Source of the DNA: an uncultured Hyphomicrobium sp. | GTDB taxonomy: Bacteria; Pseudomonadota; Alphaproteobacteria; Rhizobiales; Hyphomicrobiaceae | DNA length: 64,000 nucleotides | NCBI RefSeq assembly: GCF_902826555.1 | Contig: NZ_CADEFI010000001.1 | Span: forward strand, 227,208 to 291,207 | Reading direction: 5' to 3' | In this document: positions 51,104 through 59,066 of the stretch, one piece after another | How the letters are laid out: each line of letters opens with the position of its first letter | Numbering within the stretch: the first letter of the stretch is position 1 | The notes under the pieces: generated by a model | Database searches by the model: none | Seen by the model: the letters and a program-made list of their open reading frames with translations, nothing else | What the model was told of the DNA's origin: nothing | Position numbers and translations under genes: made by a program

Positions 51104-54100
51104 TCAAGCTATGGCTTCGCGGGCTGGCGTGACCGGTGGGGCGCCTTCGAACTCTGCGTCCAGCTCGTCCGGGCGGTGCTCCGCTGCGAGGGCGAGGTAG
51201 ATCACCGGCAGGATGAAAAGCGTGAACAGTGTGCCGATGGCCATGCCCGTCACCAGCATGATGCCGATGCTGTTGCGCGCCTCGGCGCCAGCGCCGGTGA
51301 CGAATACCAGCGGCAAGTGGCCGAAGACGGTGGCCGCGGTGGTCATGAGGATCGGTCTCAAGCGAGTCTTCGCGGCCTCACGGATCGCGGCGAGCTTTTC
51401 GAGGCCCTGCTTCTGCAACCCATTGGCGAAAGCGACGATCAGGATGCCGTTCTTGGCGATCAGGCCGACCAGCGTGATGAGGCCGATCTGGCTGTAGATG
51501 TTGATGGTCGTGAAGCCCAGGAAGGTGAAGACGAGCGCGGCCGTGAGGGCAAGTGGCACGGAGCCCAGCAGCACCACGAGCGGGTCGCGGAAGCTGCCAA
51601 ACTGCGCAACGAGCACGAGATAGATCAGCAGGATGGCGAAGCCGAGCGTTCCGGCTAGCGTGGCGCCTTCCTGACGGATCTGGCGGGATTCGCCCGCGTA
51701 GTCGATCGTGTAGTCGGCGGGCAAAATGGTGCGGGCGGCGTCCTCCAGCGTGGCGAGGGCGGTGGCCTTGGTGATGCCCGGAGCGACGCCGCCGTAGACG
51801 CGGAAGCTGTCGGCCTGCTGGAAGCGGGCGAGGGTGCGGGGCGCGGTTTTCGTCTCGAGACTGGCGATGGCGGAAACCGGGATCTGCGTTCCGTCGCGGG
51901 TGCGGATCTTGTAGTCGAGCAGCTTTGCGGCGACTGCGCGCGCATTGAGATCGACCTGCGGAATGACCTTGTAGGCGCGCCCCTCGCGTGTGAAGCGATT
52001 GACGTAGTTGCCGGAGATGAGGAGGCCCAGCTGGCGGCCGACGTCGGCGAGGTCGAGGCTGAGGTCGGCCACGCGCTCGCGATGCACGGTGACGATGACC
52101 TGCGGCAAATCGATCTTGAGGTCGGTGTCGGCAAACATGAACTGCCCGCTGGCGAAGGCCGCGTTGACGAGCTTGCCGGCGTAGTCGGCCATTTGCTCGG
52201 GCGTGCCGGGTCCCTTGAGCACCAGCTCGACATCGTAGTTCCCGGCGCCGGGCAGTGCCGGTGGCAGTACCGGGAATACCTGAAGCTCCTTGATCTTCGA
52301 CACGGCTCCGAAGATCTCGGGCTGGATCGCATGGGCAGGGCGCGTACGGTCGTGCCAGTTCTTGAGGAGATAGCCGCCGAAGCCGGTCGAGGGGAATACG
52401 ATCTCGAACATGGCCTCGTATTCGGGCAGCGTCTTGCCGATTGCCTGCACTTTATCCATGTGGCCGGCGGTGTAAGCGAGCGAGGCGTCGGGCGCGGAGT
52501 TGACGATGAGCAGGATGAAGCCCTCGTCTTCGACAGGGGCAAGCTCCTGCGAGGAAAACATGTAAAGCGGGACGGCCATCACGCAAATGAAGGCGCCGAA
52601 CGTCAGAACCTGCGCGCGCAGGTGGAGGATAACATCGAGCGCGCGGCTGTAAGCCTCCGAAAGGCGGTCGAGGCTGCGGCTCACGAAGCGAGCGTAGCGG
52701 CCTTCGTGGCCGCCTTCGTAGGCCGAATAGGCGCTCATGACCGGCGAGAGCGTGACGGCGACGAAGCCCGAAACGATGACGGCGATGGCCAGCGTGAAGG
52801 CAAACTCCTTGAAGAGCACGCCGGTCAGGCCGTCGAGGAAGCCGATCGGCGCGTAGACGGCGGCCAGCGTGATGGTCATGGCGAGGATGGGCGTAAACAG
52901 CTGGCGGGTCGAGACGAGCGCCGCCTGCAATCGGGACATGCCGTTCTGCATATGTCGCGTGACGTTCTCGACGACGACGATGGCGTCGTCCACGACGATG
53001 CCGACCGAAAGCACGATCGCGAGCAGCGTCAGAAGATTGAGCGAGAAGCCCATGGCCAGCATGGCGGCGGCGGCGCCGACGAGCGAGATCGGGATGGTAA
53101 CGAGCGGTACCAGCGCGCTGCGCCAGGAGCCGAGAAACAGGAAGACAATGACGCCGACGATGAGCACCGTCTCGGAGAAGGTCTTGCCGATCTCCTTCAG
53201 CGAGTTCTCCATATAAACGGTGCCATCGTAGGCGAGGTCGATCTCGGTGCCCTTCGGCAGATCGGGGCGGATGGCGTCGAGCTCGGCGCGAAGCGCGTAG
53301 GCGACGGCGATCTCGTTGGTGCCCGGCAGCGGCCAGACGGAAAGATAGACGGCGTCCTTGCCGTTGTGACGAACGTTGGCCGTCTCTTCTTCGGAGCCGA
53401 GCTCCACATGACCGAGATCGGAAATGCGGACGATGCGGTTGGCGTCCTCGCGCACAATCAGGCGCTCGAATTCCTCTACGCTCTTCAGATCGGTGTTGGC
53501 GAGCAGGTCAACCTGGACCTGGCTGCCCTTCGTGCGGCCGACGGCGGCGAGGAAGTTGTTGCGGGTGAGTGCGGCTTCGACCTCGTTGGCGCCGAGGCCG
53601 AAGGCGGCAAGGCGGTCGGCGTCAAGCCAGATGCGCATGGCCTGCGGGCGGGCGCCTTCAAGGCCGACGCGCTGCACGTTGGGGATCGTCGAGAGGCGGG
53701 GCTGGATGTTGCGCGAGAGATAGTCGGTGACCTCCGCAGGCGTCATGGCGTCGGAGATTACGCTGACGTAGAACGTGGCGTAGGGCCGGTCCGCGCGCTG
53801 GACCTCGATGACGGGGCTTTCGATCTCTTGGGGCAACTCGCTCCGGATCTGATCCATGCGGTTGCCGACCTCGGCGAGAGCGACCGTGCTCGGGTGATTG
53901 AGCTTGAGGCGGGCGGTGACGGTGCTCACGCCGGCGACGCTCGATGATTCCACATAGTCGATGCCGGTGATGGACGATACGGCGCGCTCGACCGGCGTCG
54001 TCACAAAGCCGCGGATACTGTCGGCAGATGCGCCCACATACACGGTGGTGATGACGATCGACGAGCTTTCGATGCGCGGATACTGCTGGATCGGCAACTG

Positions 54101-54190
54101 CGTTACGGCCCTCAGGCCGATCAGGACCAGCGCCAGGTTGACGACCACTGCGATGACGGGGCGCCGGACGAACATTTCGATGAGGCGCAT
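51104..54190 (-). CDS. RND efflux pump permease (system 2), AcrB/MexB-like
   Basis: Inner-membrane proton-driven multidrug pump of 1028 residues. The N-terminus MRLIEMFVRRPVIAVVVNLALV and repeat units of six helices each are typical. The proton-relay aspartates in GIVVDDAIVVVENVTRHM and the helix-10 lysine in LVGLIAKNGILIVAFANG are intact, in contrast to system 1. Periplasmic loops contain QLPIQQYPRIE and the GTPEQMADYAGKLVNAAF region. It follows its adaptor after 12 bases and precedes the two-component genes, forming one functional cluster. Confidence 0.95.
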   Translation of the reverse strand: MRLIEMFVRRPVIAVVVNLALVLIGLRAVTQLPIQQYPRIESSSIVITTVYVGASADSIRGFVTTPVERAVSSITGIDYVESSSVAGVSTVTARLKLNHPSTVALAEVGNRMDQIRSELPQEIESPVIEVQRADRPYATFYVSVISDAMTPAEVTDYLSRNIQPRLSTIPNVQRVGLEGARPQAMRIWLDADRLAAFGLGANEVEAALTRNNFLAAVGRTKGSQVQVDLLANTDLKSVEEFERLIVREDANRIVRISDLGHVELGSEEETANVRHNGKDAVYLSVWPLPGTNEIAVAYALRAELDAIRPDLPKGTEIDLAYDGTVYMENSLKEIGKTFSETVLIVGVIVFLFLGSWRSALVPLVTIPISLVGAAAAMLAMGFSLNLLTLLAIVLSVGIVVDDAIVVVENVTRHMQNGMSRLQAALVSTRQLFTPILAMTITLAAVYAPIGFLDGLTGVLFKEFAFTLAIAVIVSGFVAVTLSPVMSAYSAYEGGHEGRYARFVSRSLDRLSEAYSRALDVILHLRAQVLTFGAFICVMAVPLYMFSSQELAPVEDEGFILLIVNSAPDASLAYTAGHMDKVQAIGKTLPEYEAMFEIVFPSTGFGGYLLKNWHDRTRPAHAIQPEIFGAVSKIKELQVFPVLPPALPGAGNYDVELVLKGPGTPEQMADYAGKLVNAAFASGQFMFADTDLKIDLPQVIVTVHRERVADLSLDLADVGRQLGLLISGNYVNRFTREGRAYKVIPQVDLNARAVAAKLLDYKIRTRDGTQIPVSAIASLETKTAPRTLARFQQADSFRVYGGVAPGITKATALATLEDAARTILPADYTIDYAGESRQIRQEGATLAGTLGFAILLIYLVLVAQFGSFRDPLVVLLGSVPLALTAALVFTFLGFTTINIYSQIGLITLVGLIAKNGILIVAFANGLQKQGLEKLAAIREAAKTRLRPILMTTAATVFGHLPLVFVTGAGAEARNSIGIMLVTGMAIGTLFTLFILPVIYLALAAEHRPDELDAEFEGAPPVTPAREAIA

Positions 54191-54202
54191 TCGGCTTGCT
54201 CC

Positions 54203-55315
54203 TCAGTTGACGCCGACGGACGGCGCCGGCGCGGCAGCGGTGCTCGTGTCAACGAGCAGGCCTTCGCGCAACTTGAACGAACCCGACGCGGCGATCAGCT
54301 CTCCCGCTTCGACACCCTTGTGGACGGCGATCTCATCGCCCTGCACGGCACCGGTGGTCACCTGGCGGGCGCGCGCGCGCAGCTTGCCTTGCTCCTCGAC
54401 GAGGACGAAGACGTGCTGGCCATTGGGTGACCGGCGGATCGAAGCGAGGGGTACGAGCACGGTCGGTTGCGGCGGGGACGTGATGGCGGTCACGTCCACG
54501 AACGTTCCGGGGCGAAGCGCTTCGCCGAATCCCTTGGCGACGGCGCGGAAGCGGATGGCGCGGTTGGTGCCGTCGGCGCTGTTGTCCTCGGCGACGATGG
54601 TGGCCGTGGTCTCGCCGCCCGGAACGGCGGCGCCCGTCAGCGTGACGCGTGCACCGGGGCGGATCACGGCTGCGCTGTCCTGAGGCAACGAGAAATCGAC
54701 GTAAGCGTCGGCTGCCATGCCCTGCAGCGTGACGATGCGGGTGCCGATGTCCAGGTAGGCGCCGGGCTGCCAGTCGGTGATCCCCACGCGGGCGCGGAAC
54801 GGGGCGGTGATGCGCTTCTTATCGACGATGACGGCGAGGGTCTTGGCGCGTGCGGTCGCGGCTGCGAAATCCTCACGTGCGCGGTCGAGCTCCTGCTGAT
54901 TGAAGGCGGCGCTGTCACGGAGGTTTTCGCGGCGATCGAGGGTCAACTTCGCAAGACGGGCTTCGGCCTCGGTGGCGGCGAGCGCGGCATTCTCCTGGCG
55001 GACATCGAACTGGACGAGAAGTGCTCCTTGCTCGACGACGTCCCCGGATTTGAAGCCGATCTCGGCGATGACGCCTGCGATCTCGTTCTTGATCTCGACC
55101 TGGCGCAAGGCCACCACAGAGCCTATGGCGCGCGTCGTTGCCGACCATTGGCCGGTGCGCGCATGGACGGAGAGCACAGCTTCGACCGGCTCTGGAGTCG
55201 CCTGCGACGCGGCGATCCCAGCCTGGATCTCATTGTATTTGTAGTATCCAAGCCCGCCGGCAATTCCGGCGATGGCGAGGATCACAGCCAACCAGGCTGA
55301 GACGCGCCTAAGCAT
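54203..55315 (-). CDS. RND efflux periplasmic adaptor (system 2)
   Basis: Membrane-fusion protein of 370 residues with one N-terminal helix (VSAWLAVILAIAGIAGGLGYY). Lipoyl halves are visible in VALRQVEIKNEIAGVIAEIGFKSGDVVEQGALLVQFD and KKRITAPFRARVGITDWQPGAYLDIG. The alpha-hairpin between them is short. The beta-barrel holds VDFSLPQDSAAVIRPGARVTL. The ATG at 55315 has GAGG six bases upstream; an in-frame TTG at 55348 would add 11 hydrophilic residues. It starts the leftward cluster adaptor-pump-regulator-kinase-small proteins. Confidence 0.93.
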   Translation of the reverse strand: MLRRVSAWLAVILAIAGIAGGLGYYKYNEIQAGIAASQATPEPVEAVLSVHARTGQWSATTRAIGSVVALRQVEIKNEIAGVIAEIGFKSGDVVEQGALLVQFDVRQENAALAATEAEARLAKLTLDRRENLRDSAAFNQQELDRAREDFAAATARAKTLAVIVDKKRITAPFRARVGITDWQPGAYLDIGTRIVTLQGMAADAYVDFSLPQDSAAVIRPGARVTLTGAAVPGGETTATIVAEDNSADGTNRAIRFRAVAKGFGEALRPGTFVDVTAITSPPQPTVLVPLASIRRSPNGQHVFVLVEEQGKLRARARQVTTGAVQGDEIAVHKGVEAGELIAASGSFKLREGLLVDTSTAAAPAPSVGVN

Positions 55316-55714
55316 TTTGTCCTCGGGCCGTGCTTTGGGTTGACGCAATGGTCGCGCTTGAAGGCGTGTCCGCTGGACACCCGCTGGTTACGCTCGCGGC
55401 GCGTCCTTGGATGCTCCCTCGGTAGCTCATCCTGGCGAGGCCATGCGGGCGCGGGTTCTCCCAGACGCCGAAGCCGTATGGTCTCATCGTATCCAGGACG
55501 GGCGACGCTCCCCCTTTCCGACACGTCGATCGGACTATTTTTCTTACGTTATGGGCTTTCTTCGGCCGGGAGGTCGTCCAAGGTCAAGAGGGACCTTGGA
55601 CAAAGGGTTTCCGGGCGGCCGTGCACGCGCGCCGGGTGTTGCCGTTCGGTGGCGCATTTGCTGGGTTTTCCCGGGTTTACATGGTCCGGGCAGCAATTTT
55701 GGGGGCGTATATCG
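55316..55714. other. Intergenic region upstream of RND system 2, with a hairpin
   Basis: About 400 bases with no convincing gene. It holds the promoter for the system 2 adaptor gene and the region past the exported-protein gene at 55715. GTCCAAGGTC (55576-55585) pairs perfectly with GACCTTGGAC (55592-55601) over a six-base loop, without a T-run. A short dyad TCCGA-N8-TCGGA lies at 55517-55534, next to an AT-rich stretch (GGACTATTTTTCTTACGTTATGG). The dyad and AT patch are good candidates for the operator and promoter of the pump cluster. Confidence 0.5.
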
Positions 55715-56248
55715 TCAGTCCGCGGCGGGTCGAATAACAACCCGGATGCTCGGGCTGCGTGTGCCGCTCACCTGGATCGAGAACGGGCCCGGGGCGACCT
55801 CGAAGCGCACGCTTTTGCGGATGCCTTTGCAATCGTGAGAGCCGGTGTGGCCCGTTGCCTCCAAAGGCGCGCCGTTCTGCACGACGTCGACCCAGCCGTG
55901 GTCCGAGATGGTGACCTGGTAATGGGTGGCTGCGAGCGTGCCCGTGACGTGCACCACGCCGCCGAAGGTCTGATCGTCGTCGGGCTTCGGCGTGCGCGTC
56001 GGCTTGCCTGGGAATGTCACTTCTGCGAGCGGAAGCAGCGCTACCTCGATGGCTTTGCCGGGCGGGATCGCAGCCAGCGTAGCGCCGGAGGCGACCTTCT
56101 CGGCGCCGGCGGCGTTCATCCAAGACAGCTCGGTGGCGAGGGGCCACAGAAGGCCCTCGCAACCCTTCTCCTCCGCGGCCGCAACGGTTTGCACCGAGGT
56201 GCCCAGGAGCGCCGCCAATCCGGCCAGGACGAGACGAAGCCTTCGCAT
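55715..56248 (-). CDS. Exported protein of unknown function in the TonB-receptor/Mop operon
   Basis: Protein of 177 residues with a signal peptide (MRRLRLVLAGLAALLGTSVQTVAAA). The mature part has two cysteines, one near the start (EKGCEGLLWPLATELSWM) and one near the end (GSHDCKGIRKSVRFEVAP), which could form a disulfide. The rest is beta-rich: VHVTGTLAATHYQVTISDHGWVDVV and the C-terminal FSIQVSGTRSPSIRVVIRPA. I recall similar short proteins next to TonB-dependent receptors, sometimes misnamed homogentisate dioxygenase, but no activity is evident. Its ATG begins one base after the mop stop, so it is surely co-translated. It may be a periplasmic binder of the transported ligand. Confidence 0.75.
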   Translation of the reverse strand: MRRLRLVLAGLAALLGTSVQTVAAAEEKGCEGLLWPLATELSWMNAAGAEKVASGATLAAIPPGKAIEVALLPLAEVTFPGKPTRTPKPDDDQTFGGVVHVTGTLAATHYQVTISDHGWVDVVQNGAPLEATGHTGSHDCKGIRKSVRFEVAPGPFSIQVSGTRSPSIRVVIRPAAD

Positions 56249-56249
56249 C

Positions 56250-56456
56250 TCATTCCACCGCGATCATGACGTCCGAGGCCTTGACGACGGCCGAGGCCGA
56301 CATGCCGGGTGCGAGCTTCAACTCGTCCACCGCCTCGTTCGTGATCGACGCGGTGACGACGGTGCCGCCGACGTCGATCCGCACGTGGGCCGTGGTCGCT
56401 CCCTTTTTCACTTCGACAATCTTGCCTTTGAGCACATTGCGGGCGCTGATCTTCAT
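56250..56456 (-). CDS. mop: Molbindin (Mop), molybdate/tungstate-binding TOBE protein
   Basis: Small cytosolic protein of 68 residues, the standard molbindin length. The single TOBE/Mop domain is complete: MKISARNVLKGKIVEVKKGATTAHVRIDVGG, then VVTASITNEAVDELKLAPGMSASAVVKASDVMIAVE. The family forms hexamers that bind molybdate or tungstate and store or buffer it. It lies 77 bases after a TonB-dependent receptor gene and directly before the exported-protein gene. A Mo-box-like palindrome precedes the receptor gene, so all three genes may be Mo-responsive. Confidence 0.93.
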   Translation of the reverse strand: MKISARNVLKGKIVEVKKGATTAHVRIDVGGTVVTASITNEAVDELKLAPGMSASAVVKASDVMIAVE

Positions 56457-56533
56457 GGCGATCTCTCCACAGGGACGTATGCGCTAGGATATAGCGCACT
56501 TACGTCTCGCGGCCAAATCCGCGCTGGGTCACC

Positions 56534-58987
56534 TCAGAACCGTACTCTCGCATTGGCGAAGAACTGACGGCCGGCTTCGGGAAAGCCGTCTGCGAGCGCG
56601 TAGTTCTCGTCGAACAGGTTGGTTGCGCCGATGGCGATGTCGGCATTGTCATTGAAGGCGTACTCGGCCTGAAAGTTGACGATGCTGTAGGCGCCGATGT
56701 CGGTGAAGTTGGGGCGCGCGTTGCGGATGTTGTTATTGGCGTTGTTGGTCGGCGTGTTGGCGTCAAGGCAATTGACATGATTGCTGATGCCGTTCGGCGG
56801 ACGACGCAGCAGGGTCGAGTCGCACCCCGTAACGAGCACCGTGCGGTCGCTGGCCATTTCCACGCTCGGCGTCAGCGTGAGCTGTGGGATCGGCTTCCAC
56901 GACAGATAGACGAATGCCTTGTGGGTCGGCGTGCCTTCGGGCTTGTAAGCGGCAACCGATGCGATGGCGGCTTCCGTCAGAGCAGCCGCATTGGCGATGC
57001 CCTCGAACGGCGTCACTCCGAGTGAGGCCTTGAGATAGTCGAACTCGCGCTCGATGTAGGTGTAGTTGCCGCCGATGCGCAGCGTGCGGGTGATGTCCCA
57101 GTCGGCCGAGACTTCGACACCCCGTGTCTTGCCGTCGGCGTTGAAGCCGATGATCGACGTGCTTCCGTTGGGTGCGAAGAAGGCATTTTGGATGCTGTCC
57201 TCGATGTCGGAATAGAAGGCGGCACCCGAAACCTTGAGGCCCGGTATCAGCGTATCCGAGAGGCCGATCTCGTAGTTGGTCGCGCGCTCGGGATCGAGGT
57301 TCGGATCGACCGCACGGGTGCCAAAGCGCGTGCTGTAGCGTTCGAACAGTGTCGGGAAGCGGGTGCGGGACGATACGCTCGCATGGGCCGTTCCGGTGCC
57401 GCTGTAATTCAGGATGGCGGCGCCTTGCCAGTTCCAGGCGTCGACGTCCGGCTTCTCATCCTGCGATCTGATGACGAGGATGGGATCGTTGTCGTCGTCC
57501 ACGAATTCCGCCTGCAGGACTTCATTGCGGTCGTAGCTCACGCCCGCGACGAAATCGAGGAACGACGTGGCGTGGAAGGTGTTCTCGACAGCGAACGACC
57601 ACGTCTCCTCGGCATTCGTCTCGGTGGGAGATCTGCCCGTGAACACGCTGACGTTGCTCTCATAGTCGAGATCCCATTCCTTATGAACGTCTTTCCGGTA
57701 ATGGATCGTTCCTTTGAGCGTGTTCATGGGAATGAGCTTGGTGCCCAACTCAACGAAACCGCCGTAATTGTAGTCGTCGTAGATGCTGTCGAGAAAGCGT
57801 GTCGTAAATGTTGCATCGTCGTGGAACTGCAGGTTGCTGCCGAACGTCGAATAGTAGGCGTTTGTCTTTACGTAGGACGCTTCTCCGAGCTGCGTCTTCG
57901 ACAGCCATGACACTTGTGACGTCGACCAGTCGTCCCATGACCAGAAACGTTGCTTGTCGACAAAGAAGATGTTCTGCACGGCCTGTCTGTCGGTGTGCAG
58001 CGGACTTCCCCGCTCGTTGGCCTGGGTGGTGTAGCTGATCGTGTATTCGTCGGTCGCATTCGGCGTGATGCCGATCTTGGCGTTGATGCGCCAGTCCTCG
58101 AAGTTCGAGTGGTCGCGGTTGCCGCCGTCCTCGTAGGGATAGTAGTCCGGCCGATATCCGGGAGTGGCCGGCCCTGCGGGCTGGAAGTCATCCGACAGGT
58201 TGAAGTGGTCCTGGTCGACGATCGTTCCGCTGACCTGAGCGTAGTAGCCCTCCTGGCGCGTGCCGGCGTAGGCGTAGCTGCTCCATTGGTTCATGTCGCT
58301 GACATCGCCGTTCATGACGACACCGGCGCGGCCCTCGAACTCAATTTCCTTTGTGGGCTTGCGGGACACGAGGTTGACGGCGCCGCCGAGCCCGCCAGGG
58401 CCGTTCAAGACGGAGACATAGCCCTTCTGCACCTGGACCTCCGCGAGATCCGGCGTGAGGAAGCGGGCGAAGTCGAGGCGGTTATCGGCGGGCAGGTAGA
58501 TGCGCACGCCGTCCATGTAGAGGGGGACGCGAAAACGGTCGAAGCCGCGCACCTGGATGTCTCTCTCGTTGCGGCTGTTGCCGCTCTGCTGCACAGAAAC
58601 GCCGGGAAGGATGCTCAGGGCCTGATCGAGCGATTTCTTGTTGTAAGTCCACATCGCCTCATTGGTGATGGTGGAGCCGCCGATCAGGTCGAGCTGGCCG
58701 AGTGTGAAGGGGGCGACCTCAGGTCCTGCGTCCCCTACGGTGCCGGGAAGATCGGATGTGCCGGGCTCGGGCGAGGCTCCGCTGCTGCCTGCCGTCAGCG
58801 GGCGCTTGGCCTTTCGGCGCGGCGGCTCGGAGGGCGCCTGAACGACGACGGGGGGAAGCGGGGTGGCTTCATCGGCCGTAACGTCACCGCCGGCAGTGGC
58901 TGCGGCCCCCGTGTCCTGCGCGAGTGCTCCGGATGCTGCGACGCAAAGACCCGCCGCGGCAACGGCGGCAAACACGCACTTCGACAT
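56534..58987 (-). CDS. TonB-dependent outer-membrane receptor, candidate molybdate/tungstate (or metallophore) transporter
   Basis: Outer-membrane TonB-dependent transporter of 817 residues. The signal peptide (MSKCVFAAVAAAGLCVAASGALAQ) is followed by a proline-rich region with a possible TonB box (LPPVVVQAP). The plug domain (about 95-225) has SLDQALSILPGVSVQQSG, DIQVRGFDRFRVPLYMDGVRI and VLNGPGGLGGAVNLVSRKP. The 22-strand barrel follows, ending FFANARVRF with the terminal Phe. The ATG at 58987 has GGGGA upstream; a GTG at 59005 is less likely. The sequence resembles catecholate-siderophore-type receptors, but the neighbouring mop and Mo-box-like site point to molybdate or tungstate. Ligand is inference. 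Confidence 0.9.
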   Translation of the reverse strand: MSKCVFAAVAAAGLCVAASGALAQDTGAAATAGGDVTADEATPLPPVVVQAPSEPPRRKAKRPLTAGSSGASPEPGTSDLPGTVGDAGPEVAPFTLGQLDLIGGSTITNEAMWTYNKKSLDQALSILPGVSVQQSGNSRNERDIQVRGFDRFRVPLYMDGVRIYLPADNRLDFARFLTPDLAEVQVQKGYVSVLNGPGGLGGAVNLVSRKPTKEIEFEGRAGVVMNGDVSDMNQWSSYAYAGTRQEGYYAQVSGTIVDQDHFNLSDDFQPAGPATPGYRPDYYPYEDGGNRDHSNFEDWRINAKIGITPNATDEYTISYTTQANERGSPLHTDRQAVQNIFFVDKQRFWSWDDWSTSQVSWLSKTQLGEASYVKTNAYYSTFGSNLQFHDDATFTTRFLDSIYDDYNYGGFVELGTKLIPMNTLKGTIHYRKDVHKEWDLDYESNVSVFTGRSPTETNAEETWSFAVENTFHATSFLDFVAGVSYDRNEVLQAEFVDDDNDPILVIRSQDEKPDVDAWNWQGAAILNYSGTGTAHASVSSRTRFPTLFERYSTRFGTRAVDPNLDPERATNYEIGLSDTLIPGLKVSGAAFYSDIEDSIQNAFFAPNGSTSIIGFNADGKTRGVEVSADWDITRTLRIGGNYTYIEREFDYLKASLGVTPFEGIANAAALTEAAIASVAAYKPEGTPTHKAFVYLSWKPIPQLTLTPSVEMASDRTVLVTGCDSTLLRRPPNGISNHVNCLDANTPTNNANNNIRNARPNFTDIGAYSIVNFQAEYAFNDNADIAIGATNLFDENYALADGFPEAGRQFFANARVRF

Positions 58988-59008
58988 TTTCTTGTTCCCC
59001 AACACTCA

Positions 59009-59026
59009 GTGGACCGCGCGGTCCAC
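59009..59026. promoter_or_regulatory. 18-base perfect palindrome in the receptor gene leader
   Basis: GTGGACCGCGCGGTCCAC, between the Mo-box-like site and the receptor ribosome site (about 22 bases upstream of the ATG). In RNA it would fold into a tight GC hairpin close to the ribosome site; in DNA it could be a second regulator site. Function is inference. Confidence 0.5.
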
Positions 59027-59038
59027 ACTCCCCATTGC

Positions 59039-59066
59039 TTAGTTATATTCATGTGAATATAGCGAT
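59039..59066. promoter_or_regulatory. ModE Mo-box-like palindrome upstream of the TonB receptor-mop operon
   Basis: The site is TTAGTTATATT-CATGTG-AATATAGCGAT. The right half, read on the minus strand, is ATCGCTATATT, which matches the ModE half-site ATCG-N-TATATA at ten of eleven positions. The left half matches the right at eight of eleven, and the central 18 bases (59044-59061) are a perfect palindrome. Half-site length and six-base spacer agree with the Mo-box as I recall it. It lies 52-79 bases upstream of the receptor start, suitable for repression by a ModE/MopB-like protein. No modE gene is in the window. Confidence 0.65.

Follow-up and report, generated by a model that had tools for sequence, protein, structure and literature searches.

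A candidate molybdenum-regulated TonB-dependent uptake operon in an uncultured Hyphomicrobium

What would a TonB-dependent receptor, a member of a class that mostly carries iron chelates, be doing behind a regulatory site of the molybdenum (Mo) type? This question is raised by a stretch of 64,000 nucleotides from an uncultured Hyphomicrobium sp. (hereafter the window; contig NZ_CADEFI010000001.1 of assembly GCF_902826555.1, positions 227,208 to 291,207 of the forward strand), in which three consecutive and closely spaced minus-strand genes encode a TonB-dependent receptor, the small protein Mop (molbindin) and an exported protein with two cysteines that we call EXP. An initial annotation of this DNA had read the leftward trio as a Mo-responsive acquisition system for molybdate or tungstate. 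The trio itself is borne out by domain and family matches, strand and spacing; comparison among genomes gives good support to a role in the acquisition of Mo or tungsten (W) and to control by a ModE-type regulator, and the reading as a whole is supported in part. Judged from sequence comparison, a Mo-regulated TonB-dependent uptake operon is the probable explanation of the locus.

The site in question is a palindrome upstream of the receptor gene (Table 1). The E. coli ModE consensus, as printed in the accessible text of PMC545781, is ATCGNTATATA-N6-TATATANCGAT; read on the plus strand, the palindrome departs from it at four of 20 positions (one in the right half, three in the left), and the second-best site in the window has seven mismatches. 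The initial annotation had counted ten of 11 bases as fitting in the right half. The "perfect 18-base centre" claimed alongside had to be given up, since around position 59052.5 the innermost pair is non-complementary and the next eight pairs are complementary, leaving eight of nine. For the 3.72-Mb genome, where our statements are based on pattern, family and protein searches together with individual stretches, we used the core pattern CGNTATAT-N8-ATATANCG, shortened from the Mo-box and in agreement with the printed consensus, with the reversed pattern as control. With up to two mismatches allowed, three sites were found versus none for the control; the best of them is the receptor box (one mismatch to the core pattern), and the second, with two mismatches, ends 13 nt before modA. 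The receptor box sits where a repressor would block the predicted promoter, and control by a ModE-type regulator is well supported. That such control represses rather than activates is presumably to be expected from the precedent of E. coli modA.

A Mo-box scan and a search for the trio in relatives had been set beforehand as checks, and both spoke for the annotation: the box recurs and the trio is co-conserved. Within the 250 nt before the homologous part of the receptor, 23 of the 30 receptors of the family carry a box of up to three mismatches, against 0.23 expected from dinucleotide shuffles, and 16 carry one of up to two. It is on this count that we reject a chance palindrome in an accidental neighbourhood, that is, an ordinary iron receptor lying beside mop. 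The imperfect box of the window favours such an accident, as does the third genome site (C4:35192, two mismatches), which has no clear target; the family boxes, the co-occurrence of receptor and EXP and their joint loss in one genome (both below) oppose it, and together they make it highly improbable.

Boxes before the receptor were also found in narrower and wider samples. Across eight genomes of the genus, real core sites number 3–8 and reversed-control sites 0–5 per genome; with control sites this common, two-mismatch sites alone mean little there, and it is position that tells. Of the seven genomes of the genus that have the receptor, six carry a site of up to two mismatches immediately in front of it, while that of the seventh (G801) has three. 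An earlier set gave a box of up to three mismatches at 20 of 25 receptor loci, on a background of 16 in 338,484 positions; the misses were L047, L107, L110, L111 and L114, and L043 and L112 were left uncounted because the receptor frame found there was only a fragment. Among eight distant loci, the box lies 3–73 nt before the first following start codon in L128–L131 and L133, and before the operon in L134. Boxes without any mismatch occur at L080 and L131 (between ModE and receptor), L108 (Shinella), L176 (a member of the genus), L114 (an E. coli operon) and L134. In two genus members, genes for a haem-containing dehydratase (PF13816) also seem to start beside zero-mismatch Mo-boxes (L208:407-1540 and L211:1454-2617).

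Co-conservation was assessed in 103 genomes of the family, with the receptor counted at E up to 1e-60 and at most nine candidates scored per genome. Receptor and EXP occur together in 29 genomes, the receptor alone in one (G220), EXP alone in three (G356, G749 and G793, the last with a receptor fragment adjoining EXP at L143) and neither in 70, giving 30 genomes with the receptor and 32 with EXP (Fisher p = 4e-21 for co-occurrence). Stand-alone Mop above its cut-off was found in 28 of the 30 receptor genomes versus 15 of the 73 others (p = 3e-12). Within 1.5 kb at the 30 EXP loci examined out of 40 matches, the arrangements were receptor-Mop-EXP (18), receptor-EXP (5), Mop-EXP (6) and ModE-EXP (1). 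The expected co-conservation of mop with the receptor is therefore seen genome by genome, and within a single operon in part only.

The operon is flanked in the window by a gene for error-prone DNA polymerase on the 5' side of the receptor (NF004225, 1372 bits against a cut-off of 939) and on its 3' side by an efflux pair of the HlyD/AcrB type (51104-55348), homologues of which also follow EXP in L008 and L039; no connection of this pair with Mo was noticed, nor was one sought. In one genus member (G356) neither the receptor nor a stand-alone Mop was matched. What it retains is a 47-residue scrap of EXP (L105:7307-7447), separated by about 28 nt from the polymerase frame and followed by HlyD and RND genes homologous to those of the window, and a two-mismatch box still stands before its modA. 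With the scrap lying between counterparts of the window's flanking genes, and receptor and Mop gone, the locus looks like the scar of a joint loss of the whole unit.

Table 1 Features of the candidate uptake operon and their positions in the window.
Feature	Position	Strand	Remarks
EXP, 177 aa, exported, two invariant Cys	55715..56248	-	undescribed family
Mop (molbindin), 68 aa, single TOBE domain	56250..56456	-	TIGR00638, 82.8 bits against a cut-off of 55
Weak second Mo-box-like element	56473..56496	-	16 nt before mop, 3 mismatches
TonB-dependent receptor, 823 aa	56534..59005	-	GTG start at 59005; ATG at 58987 also possible
ModE-type Mo-box	59039..59066	-	core 59041-59064, ending 35 nt before the receptor GTG start

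Relatives of the receptor have ModE, Mop, modABC, ModD or DUF2478 nearby. ModE is a neighbour in L064, L074, L080, L112, L129, L130 and L131, modABC in L130, ModD in L114 and L134, and DUF2478 in L131–L133. At the level of the phylum, the receptor (E up to 1e-60) was found in at least nine of 398 genomes, the window's own included; this count is a lower bound, as at most two candidates were scored per genome. A receptor on a P. aeruginosa plasmid (29% identity) is preceded by CGTTATGTAAAAAAATACATAACG (two mismatches) and followed by a protein with the molybdopterin-binding fold (PF00174). Separately, a DUF2478 (PF10649) gene, perhaps Mo-linked, adjoins a Mo-box in G799 (L215:829-1566, box at 1501), and in G801 (L217) a frame that resembles DUF2478 lies beside a Mo-box.

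Several observations weigh against Mo-regulated uptake. Of the 30 receptors in the family, seven lack a box of up to three mismatches (L188, L189, L190, L192, L194, L195 and L196); L188, L190, L192 and L194 have a related form with four, and L196 is a partial gene. The receptors of Azospirillum, Bartonella and S. paeninsulae in the earlier set lack a box, as do the distant loci L127 and L132, and in G356 control sites exceed real ones (four versus three). The family counts are uncorrected for shared descent, with receptors confined to five of 25 genera. Neighbours within 3.5 kb at 29 of 67 order-level EXP loci include no receptor, Mop, ModE or modABC, and a box of their own (up to three mismatches, within 150 nt) precedes only four of the 70 EXP starts from other loci than the window. 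The ModE-type protein of the genome falls short of the cut-off for its family and is without a Mo-sensing domain (see below), the receptors of Paracoccus, Bartonella and E. coli lie near iron-annotated ABC genes, and a ModE site tells what controls a gene, not what its protein carries. Taking these points together with the evidence above, we judge the operon to be real and not ordinary, and not proven.

What the receptor carries is the point at which its own sequence bears on the argument. An N-terminal Plug domain (PF07715, E = 8e-16, 58.9 bits) and a C-terminal beta-barrel (PF00593, E = 5e-31, 109.4 bits), both above cut-off, make it a TonB-dependent receptor, and an LPPVVV stretch resembles a TonB box by eye. 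None of the 25 NCBIfam models listed reaches its cut-off (best TIGR01783, 126.7 bits against 223.5), and among these models the receptor fails the curated cut-offs of known iron-siderophore families. Two remote relatives exist in its own genome at E up to 1e-5; at the same threshold the solved structures gave 14 sequence matches, all to FhuA or BtuB and to the plug part only, and a structure prediction with a mean pLDDT of 25.3 was too poor for a fold search. A signal-transducing receptor was considered and rejected for lack of an STN domain, as Pfam at E up to 1 shows Plug and barrel alone. As no other product of the operon belongs to a class that could bring cargo through the outer membrane, the receptor would be the component by which TonB-dependent uptake takes place.

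Such a receptor could instead carry an iron siderophore or another ligand, with ModE only tuning it to Mo status, for example when the ligand serves Mo-enzyme assembly or the siderophore binds both Fe and Mo. The usual cargo of the class argues for this possibility. In A. vinelandii, according to the accessible part of PMC9542535, three TonB siderophore receptors with ABC genes are switched on only in the absence of Mo and vanadium (V). Some related receptors do lie near FecCD-type or iron-annotated ABC genes; the FecCD type, however, includes the importer MolBC-A. In H. influenzae, MolBC-A is a molybdate importer, as stated in the text available of PMC4031551. The recurrence across the receptor group of Mop, EXP, ModE, modABC, ModD and DUF2478 neighbours and of Mo-boxes also runs counter to a receptor for an iron siderophore or another ligand, which we consider unlikely.

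Regulation of the operon would depend on a ModE-type protein, of which the genome encodes one. It scores 87.7 bits at C8:43832, where it is convergent with modA, and 84.9 bits as a whole frame, below the cut-off of 98.5 for its family, which is out of reach for every match across the 103 genomes. A ModE of two parts, one of them formed by TOBE domains that bind Mo, was not found here, the ModE domain ending 14 residues before the stop codon, and among 11 ModE frames near the studied loci only that of L131 also has a Mop-like part. ModE-type proteins (E below 1e-20) are present in every one of the 30 receptor genomes, as they are in 43 of the 73 others, so that ModE is needed for the reading as Mo-regulated uptake and not peculiar to it.

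With no Mo-binding domain in the sole ModE-type protein, Mop is a possible detached sensor for it. Mop is a stand-alone TOBE protein of the size typical of molbindins (about 70 aa), and a search of the genome with PF03459 returned two matches only, Mop and ModC; by these genome searches ModE would have no other free TOBE protein at its disposal, and we put the sensor role of Mop forward as a proposal. The store of Mo envisaged by the initial annotation may be a sensor instead. How TOBE-less ModE proteins sense Mo is called unclear for Desulfovibrio in the accessible text of PMC545781, a question that the TOBE-less ModE described here makes concrete. The weak second element before mop (Table 1) is one of two sites of up to three mismatches in the window, the other being the main box, against 0.25 expected, and is by itself not beyond chance. 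Elements like it stand 16–26 nt before mop in the seven genomes of the genus that have the receptor, with 2, 2, 3, 3, 4, 4 and 5 mismatches and hence weak in some of them; the 17 mop loci from other genera show 6–8 mismatches.

EXP, the third product of the operon, begins with what resembles a signal peptide by eye and carries its cysteines at positions 30 and 140. In an alignment of 66 sequences both Cys30 and Cys140 are invariant, and L71, G108, W119, D121 and K145 are conserved in at least 90%. Neither Pfam nor NCBIfam has a family for EXP at E up to 1; over the 66 members, any one Pfam family at E up to 0.05 matches four members at most (best E 0.0046). Solved structures gave no match to the sequence at E up to 1 and a single one to the family profile at E = 0.6, judged to be chance; a structure prediction from two sequences (mean pLDDT 37.5) was too poor for a fold search. 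The label "homogentisate 1,2-dioxygenase", borne by homologues on Sphingomonas plasmids (NZ_CP032828.1 and NZ_CP101723.1), is unsupported by family searches.

Across the order, EXP occurs in 64 of 397 genomes, and within 3.5 kb in 67 EXP regions we found the receptor in 16, Mop in 21, modABC in 8 and ModE in 6. EXP lies inside or next to modABC at eight loci, of which seven belong to a single family (f35) and L083 to another; in L167, EXP lies beside mod genes with mop divergent from modA. The best boxes before EXP itself are those of L099 (no mismatch) and L089 (one). Going by its export, its conserved residues and these mod neighbours, EXP is a likely periplasmic helper and a possible binder, though any such role is a guess. 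Other neighbours of EXP include a gene for a TauE/SafE permease, which might be an oxyanion permease, directly before it in one family (L087:7771-8601 and L096:7969-8808), a di-haem CCP/MauG peroxidase gene directly after it in L046, L063, L101, L106, L111 and L112 (the last three by annotation) and a murein endopeptidase gene in L061.

Taken together, the components suggest the following scheme. While molybdate is plentiful, the short ModE would occupy the box at the receptor promoter and keep the operon off; as Mo falls, receptor, Mop and EXP would be made together with ModA, whose gene is also boxed. The receptor, with energy from TonB, would carry one of three cargoes through the outer membrane, namely molybdate, tungstate or a small chelate of Mo or W, which the evidence does not distinguish. 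In the periplasm, EXP would act on the arrivals by holding them, releasing them or handing them to ModA, and ModABC would move the oxyanion inward; modA, modB and modC of this genome pass their NCBIfam cut-offs, with modB and modC on a different contig from modA. In the cytoplasm, Mop would bind molybdate, whether to buffer it, to store it or to sense Mo on behalf of the TOBE-less ModE. The genes and boxes, their linkage and their co-conservation are observed in the sequences, and the repression, the cargo, the dependence on TonB and the parts played by EXP and Mop are deduced.

A system that serves tungstate rather than molybdate overlaps with this scheme, in which the choice between Mo and W stays free. 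Tungstate would agree with the binding of either oxyanion by Mop and ModA proteins and with the ability of methylotrophs in this order to use a W-formate dehydrogenase; the best scores of ModA, ModB and ModC are to models that bear the name of molybdate, a matter of naming, and nothing found here discriminates between the two. We consider tungstate as the dedicated cargo rather unlikely. A broader proposal can be made only tentatively, and we hold it for less than an even prospect: that the Pseudomonadota receptor group, from Hyphomicrobiales to E. coli, may be dedicated to Mo or W, with an alphaproteobacterial form that would work with the new periplasmic EXP family and be regulated by a split ModE whose sensing half is the operon's Mop. 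As the receptor tree relied on has no outgroup (an earlier tree with wrong-frame outgroup frames was not used), "group" is a working term for related receptors and not a tested clade.

By the domain test the operon would be classed as a TonB receptor system; of a ModE regulon it appears to have the site and a ModE-type protein below cut-off, without the two-part ModE. With siderophore and B12 receptors of the FhuA/BtuB type it shares Plug, barrel and a TonB-box-like motif, and differs from them in its Mo-box, its Mop, EXP and ModE neighbours and its scores below the NCBIfam cut-offs among the models listed. No TonB receptor for molybdate or tungstate was found among the matches listed from the open PubMed Central literature, judged by title and start of abstract, a scope outside which most subscription papers fall. 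The Azotobacter receptors resemble the present one in being TonB receptors that share operons with ABC genes and respond to Mo supply, whereas they are VnfA1-activated in a nitrogenase setting, and the accessible part of PMC9542535 describes no operon with Mo-box, Mop and EXP. An outer-membrane step for molybdate has been proposed for the T6SS-ModA-IcmP system of P. aeruginosa, with secreted ModA and the outer-membrane metalloproteinase IcmP (PMC8602904); the part of that paper available describes no TonB receptor, Mop or EXP.

The ModABC-ModE route has in common with the window system the Mo-box, the ModE-type regulator and a TOBE protein, and the window's genome has its own boxed modA. That route starts in the periplasm, which molybdate is thought to reach by diffusion through porins (available text of PMC8264917), whereas the window system would add an outer-membrane step. 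If this is true, a Mo-switched, energy-driven receptor would change the answer "porins" for scarce molybdate at the outer membrane, with consequences at low Mo for nitrate reduction, nitrogen fixation and formate oxidation. A comparison in a model organism is offered by an E. coli operon between treA and ymgE, seen at L114:1353-7827 (plasmid NZ_CP141085) and L221 (ATCC 25922), with the order SBP-FecCD permease-ATPase-methyltransferase-ModD-receptor. At least 80% of its DNA is present in 2094 of 5426 E. coli genomes and some match in 5265, figures that measure DNA coverage and not gene intactness; in the laboratory strain Nissle 1917 the coverage is 100%. Like the window, it has a related receptor (29.8% identity over 65% of the window receptor as query) and a Mo-box, here one without mismatch that ends 24 nt before the first gene of the operon; unlike the window, it has a FecCD-type importer of its own and ModD, without Mop or EXP. 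This relative makes the idea of a Mo receptor testable in a standard laboratory strain of E. coli.

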